Part shown: in pieces, positions 33,737 to 52,139 of the stretch
Position numbering within the stretch: the stretch's first letter is position 1
Layout: each line of letters opens with the position of its first letter
DNA from: Haloferula luteola
GTDB taxonomy: Bacteria > Verrucomicrobiota > Verrucomicrobiia > Verrucomicrobiales > Akkermansiaceae
Direction of reading: 5' to 3'
DNA length: 64,000 bases
NCBI RefSeq assembly: GCF_014201715.1
Contig: NZ_JACHFD010000003.1
Coordinates: forward strand, 124,001 to 188,000
Program-made: the position numbers and the translations under genes
Notes under the pieces: model-generated
Seen by the model: the letters and a program-made list of their open reading frames with translations, nothing else
Told to the model about the DNA's origin: nothing
The model's database searches: none

Positions 33737-34897
33737 TCAACGGAGCACCGTCAGGTACCACTCTGCCACCTTCCAACCACCGAAGAACCAGACCAGCGCA
33801 CCGAGAATCAGGTAGGGACCAAAGGGCAACTGCTTGCCGAATCCAATTCTTCCGAAAATCGCCGCGACGATCGCCAACAACGAACCGCCAAACAGCGAAA
33901 AGAACACCGCGAAGGGACCCAAAAAGGCGCCGATCACTCCCATCAGATGAACGTCCCCCATGCCCATCGCCTCACGTGGCACCACCGCTTTGGTGGCCGT
34001 GCCCTCCAGAGACTTCAGGTCCTCGATCGCGATCTTGCGCCCATCGGGAAGCACCACTCCAGCTTGGTCAATCACCACCTCCCCTGCCCCTCCATCCTCG
34101 CCATTCACCTTCACCGAATCCGCGGTGATTCGCAGACGATCCGAAGACCGGAAAAAGATATCCCACCAAGCCAGCGAATCTTCCCCCATGTGGAAAAGAA
34201 TCGGATCATTCTCCGTCTCCGCATCCTGCAAACGCCAGGCGACCGGCTTCTCATGCGACCACTCCATTTTCCCAAACGCCAACTTTCCCAACAACACCAC
34301 CGCCCACAGACCAAAGAATCCAAAAACCCATCCCAACACCGAAAACTTCAAACCGCTCCACCACCCCGTCGATAAACCATCCCATCCGCAAAGGTCAGCG
34401 AGCTCCGGCTGCAACACCGCCGCCACACACGCCGCGACCGTTCCCGAAATCGACAACTCCAACGGAATGATCATGTGCTCCGCATCGATGAATGTCATCG
34501 CCACAAAAGCCGCGAGCAGAAACCACACGGGCAAAATCGCCAAGTCCGCCATCACGAATTCACCCACCGGCACTCGCGCGCCCATCACCCTCCAGGCCCC
34601 AACAAAAAGCAGGCCCGTCAGCAGCTCGACCCAAAAATATCGCATCGAAATCTTTCCGCCACAGTCCGCACACTTCCCCCGCAACCACAACCAACTCACC
34701 AACGGCAAATTCCTCCTCATCGGAATCGACGCCTTACAGCCCGGACAAAAGGATCGCTTCGGATCATTCACCGAAAGCCCCAACGGGAGTCGGTAAATCA
34801 CCACATTCAAAAACGAACCGACGCAAATCCCAAACAGGAATGCCACCAGCAGCCACAACGGATGATCGAGCGGAGGATAGATCACGCGCGGACTCAA
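33737..34897 (-). CDS. Type IV prepilin peptidase (A24) with large insertion
   Basis: An inner-membrane aspartic protease cleaving, and usually N-methylating, type IV pilin and type II secretion pseudopilin precursors. Of 386 residues, the first helix is followed by the cytoplasmic zinc domain with CPGC (51-54) and CADC (76-79). The catalytic aspartates are Asp138 (FIDAEHMIIP) and Asp315 (GMGDVHLMG). An extra soluble segment of about 100 residues (208-308) sits before the second aspartate, making it longer than E. coli-type enzymes (about 225-290). The start is a TTG at 34897; a GTG at 34885 is possible. No pilin or secretion genes are adjacent. It lies downstream of the hairpin-rich region. 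Confidence 0.92.
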   Translation of the reverse strand: MSPRVIYPPLDHPLWLLVAFLFGICVGSFLNVVIYRLPLGLSVNDPKRSFCPGCKASIPMRRNLPLVSWLWLRGKCADCGGKISMRYFWVELLTGLLFVGAWRVMGARVPVGEFVMADLAILPVWFLLAAFVAMTFIDAEHMIIPLELSISGTVAACVAAVLQPELADLCGWDGLSTGWWSGLKFSVLGWVFGFFGLWAVVLLGKLAFGKMEWSHEKPVAWRLQDAETENDPILFHMGEDSLAWWDIFFRSSDRLRITADSVKVNGEDGGAGEVVIDQAGVVLPDGRKIAIEDLKSLEGTATKAVVPREAMGMGDVHLMGVIGAFLGPFAVFFSLFGGSLLAIVAAIFGRIGFGKQLPFGPYLILGALVWFFGGWKVAEWYLTVLR

Positions 34898-34975
34898 GCG
34901 GATGAAATCGGATTCGGAAACCTGAAAACCGTGCCCCTTCGAAGCTCCCTGCCGATTCAGAACTTGAGAGAATGA

Positions 34976-35277
34976 CCACGGACGTCGAAAGGGGAAAACC
35001 TCCGACGCCCGTGGGCCCTTTGGGGGGCTGTGTTATCCCTTACGGAGTGGAGACTTGCACACCTCCCACCGGGACTCCATCACGTCATCGCGGCACCCTT
35101 CGCTTTCTCCCCAAATGCCTCGTAGCAAAAAACTTGCTTTCACCCGATCCCGGGCGCCGAGGGGGGAGAATCTCGGCGCCCCGGTGTCGACCCACGTCGA
35201 CGCCTGCCACGGCAAAAACTCTGCTAGGTTCACCTCCGCGTAGCCATTACGCCTTCACGGTCCCCATCACAAGGGGG
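34976..35277. ncRNA. Hairpin-dense intergenic region, candidate structured RNA (strand unknown)
   Basis: This 300-base stretch separates DUF58 from the prepilin peptidase and holds at least six helices. 34976-35014: CCACGG-A-CGTCG with CGACG-C-CCGTGG. 35044-35078: GGAGT with ACTCC, with GGAG/CTCC inside. 35125-35137: GCAA with TTGC. 35150-35184: CCGGGCGCCGAG with CTCGGCGCCCCGG, one bulge. 35186-35201: GTCGAC with GTCGAC over CCAC. 35238-35252: GCGTA with TACGC. A CCCC/GGGG helix closes at 35262-35276. I could not match it to RNase P, tmRNA, SRP RNA or a riboswitch I know. It could be the 5' leader of the peptidase mRNA, an independent RNA, or a repeat element. Open frames here look non-coding. 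Confidence 0.45.
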
Positions 35278-35280
35278 CAC

Positions 35281-36585
35281 CTATAATCGACCAGCCGCCT
35301 TGATGTCCAGATAGCGGTTCGCCAAGGCCACCGGCAACTCATCCGCGGGGACATCCAGCGTGATCACCCCATGACTGCGCAACGAGGCCAAGGTTTGCGC
35401 ACGCTCCCGATCGTAATGCTCCGCCGCTGCAAACTTCAGAGCATCCGCAAACTGCTCCACCGGACGCTCCCGCGCATCCTCCAACGTTCGCTCCCGCAAA
35501 CTGGCCAGCACCACCACATGACGCCGCGTCAGGCTCGCCAAAGCCGGCACCAACTCCGTCGCATCCTCGCCACGCAGATTCGTCAAAAGCACCACCATCG
35601 CCCTCCGTTGCTGCCTCGCCTGCAACTTCTCGGCTGCCGCGGTAAAATCACTCGGCGCCGGCGTCGTACGGTAATCGTAGAGATGATCCAGCACCTTCGG
35701 CATCGAGTGGAAACCCTTCACCGGTGGCATCCACAGGTCACTTCCTCCAAATGATTGCACCCCGACGCGATCTCCCTGTCGCAGGGCGATCGACGCAACG
35801 AGCAACATCGCATTCAGGCAATGATCGAACTGTTGAAGCTCCCCATCCCTCGCCCGCATCCGTCGCCCCGTGTCCGCCAAGAAAATCAAGGTCTGATTGC
35901 GCTGCTCCTGGAACTCGCGACTGATCAACTGCGCCCGCCGGGAACTCGCTTTCCAATCGATCTGAGCCCATGGGTCCCCCTCTCGATATTCCCGCAGCTG
36001 ATGGAAGTCACGACTTGAGCCCACCAGCGCCTTGCGCACGATCCCCATTTGGTCTTGGCGAGAAGCCATCGACAAAAGAGCCAATCGAAGGGTCGGCTCG
36101 TAGTCAGGATACACTTTGACCGCCACCTCTTCCCCCACCCTCCATGCACGCCACCACAGCCCCAAGGGAGACCGCGCTCTCACATGCATCGGACGAAACA
36201 TCGCCAAACCCCGCTCCAGAATCTTCACCGGATGCTCGATTCCAGTCGTCGACTTTCCTGCTACCTCACCCCTCCAAGGCATCCTGGGCGCATCACTGCC
36301 TTCCGGGATTCCATCAAAAATCTCGATCCGTCTCCGCCGCGCTGCCGCATGCACCACCTTCAGCCGCACCACACCCACCTCGCCGACCGCGAAGCGGCCA
36401 GGCACCTCGCGCATCACGGAAATCCCTTTGACCGAAATTCCTAACAACGCATCGAAGGCCGCCAGGCCCACCATGGTTCCTCCCACCGCAGCCCAGGCCC
36501 ACAACCAGGACCGCTCGATGGAAACCAGCAGGCCCAGGAGCACCCACACCCCGCCAAGCGCCAGAGCTCTGGAAGACGGAATCAC
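35281..36585 (-). CDS. DUF58 domain protein
   Basis: A 434-residue protein with two N-terminal membrane helices (LALGGVWVLLGLLVSI; LWAWAAVGGTMVGLAAF), a beta-rich domain, and a cytoplasmic-type DUF58/von Willebrand A-like region. The family core is YREGDPWAQIDWKASSRRAQLISREF, followed by the vWA-like strand TLIFLADTGRRM. DUF58 proteins almost always pair with MoxR AAA+ ATPases; they are thought to be clients or adaptors in a chaperone-like system, function not established. The start GTG (36585) overlaps the moxR stop as GTGA, so it is translationally coupled. It is the last gene of the six-gene unit. Confidence 0.92.
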   Translation of the reverse strand: MIPSSRALALGGVWVLLGLLVSIERSWLWAWAAVGGTMVGLAAFDALLGISVKGISVMREVPGRFAVGEVGVVRLKVVHAAARRRRIEIFDGIPEGSDAPRMPWRGEVAGKSTTGIEHPVKILERGLAMFRPMHVRARSPLGLWWRAWRVGEEVAVKVYPDYEPTLRLALLSMASRQDQMGIVRKALVGSSRDFHQLREYREGDPWAQIDWKASSRRAQLISREFQEQRNQTLIFLADTGRRMRARDGELQQFDHCLNAMLLVASIALRQGDRVGVQSFGGSDLWMPPVKGFHSMPKVLDHLYDYRTTPAPSDFTAAAEKLQARQQRRAMVVLLTNLRGEDATELVPALASLTRRHVVVLASLRERTLEDARERPVEQFADALKFAAAEHYDRERAQTLASLRSHGVITLDVPADELPVALANRYLDIKAAGRL

Positions 36586-52067: not shown

Positions 52068-52139
52068 TGCCCCCGGCAGGAATCGAACCTGCATCTAGCC
52101 TTTAGGAGAGGCTCGTTCTATCCATTGAACTACGGGGGC
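52068..52139 (-). tRNA. tRNA-Arg (CCT)
   Basis: Read on the minus strand, GCCCCCG (acceptor) pairs with CGGGGGC, the D-arm is GTTC/GAAC, the anticodon stem AGCCT/AGGCT holds loop CTCCTAA (anticodon CCT, reading AGG), and the T-arm is GCAGG-TTCGATT-CCTGC. It is 72 bases, with discriminator A and no encoded CCA. A TTTTTT run follows the 3' end and may terminate transcription. Confidence 0.96.

Follow-up and report, generated by a model that had tools for sequence, protein, structure and literature searches.

In Listeria, the multicopy LhrC RNAs (LhrC1-5, 111-114 nt) bind mRNA through UCCC motifs that lie in both loops, the terminator loop included, and in an unpaired stretch, with Hfq being dispensable; a single two-component system is required for all five copies, whose promoters have positions near and beyond -53 in common (PMC4132741). 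The csRNAs of the CiaRH regulon in Streptococcus, which lacks Hfq, were predicted from a common CiaR box, a spaced -10 element and a terminator, several sRNA types standing behind one promoter box, and the CiaRH regulator also controls protein genes (PMC3091779). For the PVC group, 8 sRNAs, apparently distinct ones, are entered in a review table, against 345 for Proteobacteria (PMC9029176). In this study, we describe a conserved RNA unit, unit B, on the minus strand of a 64,000-nucleotide stretch of the Haloferula luteola genome (the window), and propose that it is probably an independent gene for a trans-acting sRNA of about 75 nt, with a mechanism that is likely similar to that of LhrC or the csRNAs, although the RNA is a member of neither group.

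The unit lies in the intergenic stretch 34976-35277, between two genes of the minus strand, namely a conserved upstream neighbour encoding a DUF58 protein (35281-36585; Pfam PF01882, 90.8 bits) and a downstream prepilin peptidase gene (33737-34897; Pfam PF06750 and PF01478). An earlier note, made from the letters of the window, had described the stretch as a hairpin-dense region of about 300 bases and had named two stems, both of which were found. Positions 35149-35161 and 35172-35184 form a 13-nt inverted repeat that is 92% complementary. At 34976-35014, the reported 11-bp stem with one mismatch is a stem indeed; it folds with mismatches on the plus strand, and the minus strand forms a better, continuous helix of 16 pairs including G-U pairs. 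The fold energy of the 302-nt stretch was better than that of 100 out of 100 shuffled sequences on both strands (z -3.42 on plus, -2.64 on minus). The hairpin density had been called far above that of other intergenic regions, and this was borne out in part when every 100-nt segment of the window, coding sequence included, was folded against 30 shuffles (1278 segments per strand): the segment at 35151 on the plus strand had the lowest energy and was third by z, whereas the one at 34951 on the minus strand was only 21st (z -2.95), and z values of -3 or lower occurred in 15 plus-strand and 19 minus-strand segments. Segments at 1401, 5301, 601 and 10951 (plus) and at 601 (minus) gave z values of -4.7 to -6.9, about as low as, or below, those of the region studied here.

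A scan of the whole window with the Rfam 15 families (cmscan), which the earlier note had proposed, yielded only a tRNA at 52068-52139 at gathering score. Below threshold (E<=10), the region matched KCNQ1OT1_1 (20.2 bits, E 0.0003, cut-off 70), tpke11 (15.7 bits, cut-off 43) and BjrC80 (14.5 bits, cut-off 80). The first of these was read as compositional, since KCNQ1OT1_1 is a human lncRNA family and the loci of four relatives gave no match to it at E<=1. The likeness to tpke11 (RF02031) is weak and consists of one GC-rich hairpin; one relative reached 25 bits with this model. LhrC is among the Rfam models, and no LhrC line appeared in the scan of the region at E<=10. No report of this RNA was found among the matches listed in literature on Verrucomicrobia sRNAs and RNA-seq, Luteolibacter sRNA, structured-RNA surveys and Akkermansia small RNAs, a search of open-licence papers that is weak evidence of absence.

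Unit B occupies 34968-35044 on the minus strand, with a predicted RNA of about 70-77 nt whose 5' end would lie near 35044 and whose 3' end would lie near 34968-34975. A 5' stretch, CGUAAGGGAUAACACA (35029-35044), is predicted to be unpaired in the window copy and is a candidate seed; 12 of its 16 columns were conserved at 90% or more among 55 units. It is followed by a small predicted hairpin, P1 (GCCC-CCCAAA-GGGC, 35015-35028), which includes a run of six Cs; its length and shape differ among relatives, and five of its C columns were at 90% or more across both genera in which the RNA was found. The terminal hairpin P2 (34976-35014), with 14-16 pairs and the C-rich loop UUUUCCCC, is a candidate terminator. 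Only a weak T-tract follows in this copy, and a strict terminator scan found no terminator there. A covariance model, R1, was built from a seed of 21 aligned units with the terminal stem as its sole helix; the window copy, itself in the seed, scored 73.4 bits (E 1.1e-14) on the minus strand against 14.8 bits on the plus strand.

Covariation in relatives, also proposed by the note, was examined in a MAFFT alignment of 55 units (52 distinct) that was not fitted to the structure. These units were chosen by the author of the analysis from 96 R1 matches of the fetched loci, leaving out antisense matches of the same hairpins, partial matches to a neighbouring unit A, overlap duplicates (L077 against L051) and a 33-bit second match in this genome (L063). 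The 14-bp terminal stem was paired in 99.0% of 728 cells, and nine of its 14 pairs changed on both sides, compared with a mean of 4.7 in shuffled alignments, only one of 500 of which reached nine. Cells changed on both sides numbered 130, against a shuffle mean of 38.2 (sd 11.4) and 11-24 when the stem was slid. These compensatory changes, together with the conservation, the promoter-like anatomy in relatives and the lack of an Rfam family at gathering score, support the suggestion that an independent, unassigned structured RNA lies here.

The region is structured, as the note had it, and looks like two tandem units and not like one RNA of 300 nt. A single RNA of that size was rejected because strong conservation of the RNA sets in at 35044 and the left part forms a second unit. 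What is conserved as a unit comprises 34968-35044 and the promoter-like sequence up to 35092, and most of the remaining stretch is unit A, which we take as a weaker or decaying tandem paralogue of unit B. The terminal hairpin of unit A (35149-35184, minus; loop AUUCUCCCCCCU) gave a partial R1 match (18.4 bits, E 0.014), and a promoter-like box, CGTGAAGGCGTAATGG (35244-35259, minus), has one mismatch to the box pattern described below. The genus has four other genomes (L003, L004, L005, L064) in which unit A, with a box-like sequence and a C-rich loop, stands in front of unit B at the DUF58 gene, and the box of unit A is largely kept in the five-row alignment. Compared with shuffled sequences, the folds of unit A do not stand out (z -1.50 for the window copy and between -1.21 and -2.25 for three relatives), and a T-tract is missing from the window copy.

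The statement that the region holds no credible ORF needs qualification, as a frame of 104 aa is open on the plus strand (34972-35286). A coding reading was nevertheless rejected: the lengths of the 55 units in relatives fall on all three values modulo 3 (22, 17 and 16 units), which argues against coding, despite one minus-strand frame that is stop-free in 36 of the 55 and carries little weight at a length of about 75-99 nt.

Parts of the DNA of the region were found by blastn in 7 of 97 genomes of the taxonomic family, this one included, and the best matches in other genomes cover parts of the block 34970-35051; a pattern derived from that block occurred in 10 of the 18 genomes of the genus, and the reversed pattern in none. 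Of 244 family genomes, 44 had an R1 match at E<=0.01 (42 of these at E<=1e-6); they fall into 2 of 16 genera, and the count includes the weakest matches (e.g. G219, G280) without inspection. The positive genomes are 15 of the 18 in the genus of the window (g1) and 29 of a second genus (g13). In the order, 43 of 386 genomes and 2 of 50 genera were positive at E<=0.001; large searches of this kind apply stricter filters and evaluate few candidates in each genome, so that weak members may escape them. A core pattern searched among 84,980 species genomes returned 28 stretches, all titled Verrucomicrobiota or a subgroup of it, the titles being Luteolibacter, Haloferula, Akkermansiaceae, Verrucomicrobiaceae, Verrucomicrobiales and MAGs labelled Akkermansia muciniphila. 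Luteolibacter marinus NBU1238 and Haloferula sp. BvORR071 are among the genomes with this core pattern.

Downstream of the same DUF58 gene, and in its orientation, a unit was found at 14 of the 50 loci (the window and 13 of 49 others), five of them in g1 and nine in g13, and at least one unit lies within 360 nt of the gene in each except L005 (439 nt). The prepilin peptidase gene adjoins the RNA at none of the 49 other loci, which are 2.6-3.1 kb long. The idea that the region is a leader controlling the prepilin peptidase was rejected on this account. The remaining copies stand near other genes, some in tandem, with three units within 0.6 kb in G010.

Upstream of the units, two promoter-like signals are conserved. 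In the window, the -10-like hexamer AAGTCT (35051-35056, minus) ends 6 nt before the start of the model. Of the 55 units, 49 have a hexamer of the form [CT]AnnnT whose end lies 5-9 nt ahead of the model start, 41 of them at exactly 6 nt, whereas the other 5-nt offset bins hold such a hexamer in 1-9 units; the window copy, with A at the first position, falls outside the 49, and in the aligned hexamer columns the A is conserved at 98% and the T at 96%. Further upstream lies a palindrome-like box, CGCGATGACGTGATGG (35077-35092, minus), which is an exact match of the pattern CGYGATNRCGTRATGG and the sole exact one in this genome. The consensus of the box upstream of the units is CGCGATCRCGTAATGG, also palindrome-like, and 9 of its 16 columns were at 91-100% in the upstream alignment of the 55 units. 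Box spellings start 46-49 nt upstream in 45 of 55 units, a count that rests on a loose list of spellings. A strict sigma-70 promoter was not found at the window copy.

These signals bear on the possibility that the unit is only a strong intrinsic terminator and spacer ending the MoxR-DUF58 operon, spread as a terminator cassette, its RNA being functionless. The position downstream of DUF58 on the same strand in 14 of the 50 loci would fit this, as would the strong hairpin and the T-tracts that come after it in many copies (a run of at least four Ts occurs within the final 10 alignment columns in 9 of the 26 g1 units and in 21 of the 29 g13 units). However, a terminator has no need of the elements conserved at 90% or more, namely parts of the box, the hexamer's A and T and the 5' stretch of the RNA; DUF58 is not a neighbour at 36 of the 49 other loci, and the loop is conserved within each genus. 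We consider this explanation unlikely.

The earlier suggestion of a repeat holds in part, as genomes have one to three sense copies (R1 also weakly matches the antisense of its own hairpins), some of them in tandem. A mobile or REP/MITE-like repeat spreading as DNA would account for these copies and for the several neighbourhoods. Against it stand the low copy number, the same place kept across two genera and the compensatory changes in the stem; moreover, what is conserved, namely box, hexamer, RNA start and stem, is what a gene would be expected to keep. The transposase search, which was for the IscB type, found the RRXRR domain at best at 12 bits (cut-off 25), and the genome gave no match at E<=10 to the IscB guide RNA HEARO (RF02033), a candidate that was thus rejected. 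Blastn of the region matched no plasmid or phage, and an origin from either was likewise rejected. Spread as a mobile repeat is in our judgement very improbable, and we retain the sRNA gene as the preferred reading.

The terminal loop of this RNA differs cleanly between the genera. It carries CCCC in all 26 units of g1 and in none of the 29 of g13, and AGGGA in none of the former and in 24 of the latter. All 29 units of g13 have AAGGGAT in the 5' stretch, so that in this genus the loop is mostly a second copy of part of the AAGGGAU motif at the 5' end. Since the second genus lacks the C-rich loop, base pairing through such a loop cannot be the single function that has been conserved. An inversion of the hairpin behind the change from CCCC to AGGGA is a speculation on our part.

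RsmY and RsmZ are sponge RNAs for the protein CsrA. The repeated AAGGGAU of the units, at the 5' end and, in g13, in the loop, could on this model titrate an RNA-binding protein, and the counts for both motifs in g13 agree with it. In the genus of the window, however, the loop carries CCCC and never AGGGA, and CsrA was detected in 0 of 97 genomes of the family, this one included, so a CsrA sponge was rejected; Hfq was likewise found in 0 of the 97, the controls being positive in 5 and 3 of 14. A sponge for an RNA-binding protein has little probability as an explanation of the unit.

The box is also found away from unit B. Its exact pattern occurs 46 times in the 18 genomes of the genus, compared with once for the reversed pattern. 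Among 45 distinct contexts examined, 12 were assigned to unit B by rule and 33 were others, one of which (L175) looks like unit B. Within 180 nt downstream of the box, all 12 unit-B sites have a run of at least five Cs, as do 21 of the 33 others, and a run of Gs lies there at 5 of 12 and 3 of 33; upstream of the box, C runs occur at 6 of 12 and 7 of 33 sites and G runs at 3 of 12 and 13 of 33. The sites are partly homologous between genomes, so these counts are not independent.

By eye, the sequences downstream of the box in L122, L124, L130 and L134 are short hairpin-like elements that start with CGTAAGC or TGTAAGC and carry repeated CUCCCC or UUCCCC; apparently they are a different RNA family on the same box. 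Hairpin elements with the CUCCCC/UUCCCC motifs were also seen at the box sites of L123 and L126, while L112, L177 and L172 share another box-led element with the conserved block GTCGGTCGCC(T/C)GCGAACCGAGCAGA(T/C)TCTCCTCCCTCGCCCTTCGA. Copies of unit B adjoin other box-led sites at L126 (1386-1469, R1 70.9 bits) and L138 (1550-1640, 77.7 bits), and different box-led elements can therefore stand in tandem.

Some box sites precede protein genes, and the box is thus not specific for RNAs. One set, recognised by eye, comprises proteins of 231-239 aa with a start like MxAQxKIQxLAMAALRSAP and one hydrophobic segment (L171:47-742, minus; L173:915-1634, plus; L178:946-1659, plus), and a frame of 79 aa behind the box in L118 starts similarly. 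In a second set (L113, L129, L136, L174 and L181), frames of 95-144 aa have a common.TS..GE segment. A Pfam scan of the box-led proteins of L173, L136 and L174 gave no match.

In the genome of the window, a box with one mismatch precedes a C-rich-loop hairpin (L143; folded as L186, z -4.16). This site (C2:172351-172366) is followed by a long perfect hairpin with a TTTCCCCCGAAA loop region and then TTTTT, and is a candidate C-rich-loop RNA gene. Another one-mismatch box precedes the 33-bit second R1 match (L149), in a stop-free stretch of 302 codons. Eight of the 10 inexact sites inspected in this genome, L149 among them, lie in stop-free stretches of at least 264 codons, and many may consequently be chance matches in coding DNA. 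With up to two mismatches, 86 sites were found against 14 for the reversed pattern, a difference that was not used as evidence because codon bias and reading direction are uncontrolled in it and most inspected sites lie in long open frames. The occurrence of the box before C-rich hairpin elements and some protein genes, partly established by inspection, suggests one regulon.

Based on these features, the following mechanism is proposed by analogy. A putative regulator would bind the palindrome-like box starting about 47 bases upstream of unit B and, together with RNA polymerase at the -10-like hexamer, would start transcription at or near CGTAAGGG. Termination and protection of the RNA would fall to the strong terminal hairpin, and three segments, namely the 5' stretch predicted to be unpaired, the run of six Cs and the loop of the terminal hairpin, would be offered for pairing with G-rich translation-initiation regions of mRNAs, which would be repressed independently of Hfq or CsrA; in this way the RNA may tune other genes by base pairing. 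Unit A would be a tandem paralogue under a similar box. As other C-rich hairpin elements of the genus stand on the same box, the RNAs would together form the output of a single regulon. Four parts of this proposal, namely transcription, the regulator, pairing with mRNA and repression, are what we infer here.

In its parts, the RNA follows the same logic as the described systems. As in LhrC and the csRNAs, several copies or types stand behind one promoter element, with the box and hexamer present over the 55 units and the box before other C-rich elements recognised partly by eye, and a C-rich motif lies in a loop or unpaired stretch in the genus of the window, though the sister genus lacks it in the loop. 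The RNA differs from LhrC in sequence, phylum and length, and in the exchange of its loop motif in a sister genus (PMC4132741). The CiaR box is a direct repeat, TTTAAG-N5-TTTAAG, in contrast to the palindrome-like CGCGATCRCG here, and the anti-SD sequence of the pneumococcal csRNAs lies in an unpaired region between two stem-loops, a further difference (PMC3091779).

More widely, it can be suggested tentatively that in Luteolibacter-type Verrucomicrobiota, where Hfq and CsrA were not found, one regulator reading the CGCGATCRCGTAATGG box drives a set of short RNAs with C-rich loops, as a riboregulatory regulon, and that sister genera have exchanged the terminal loop for its rough complement, perhaps by hairpin inversion; this combined proposal is a doubtful one. 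Hfq and CsrA are two of the best-known bacterial RNA-binding regulators, and their apparent absence from these genomes gives the question its interest. The conserved RNA and the common promoter box offer a concrete handle on it, consisting of a 16-base candidate regulator site, further candidate RNAs and two uncharacterised small protein families. The exchange of the loop, if true, would turn the pairing partners of the RNA round, and its clean change at the level of the genus is a natural experiment on the evolution of sRNA pairing sequences.
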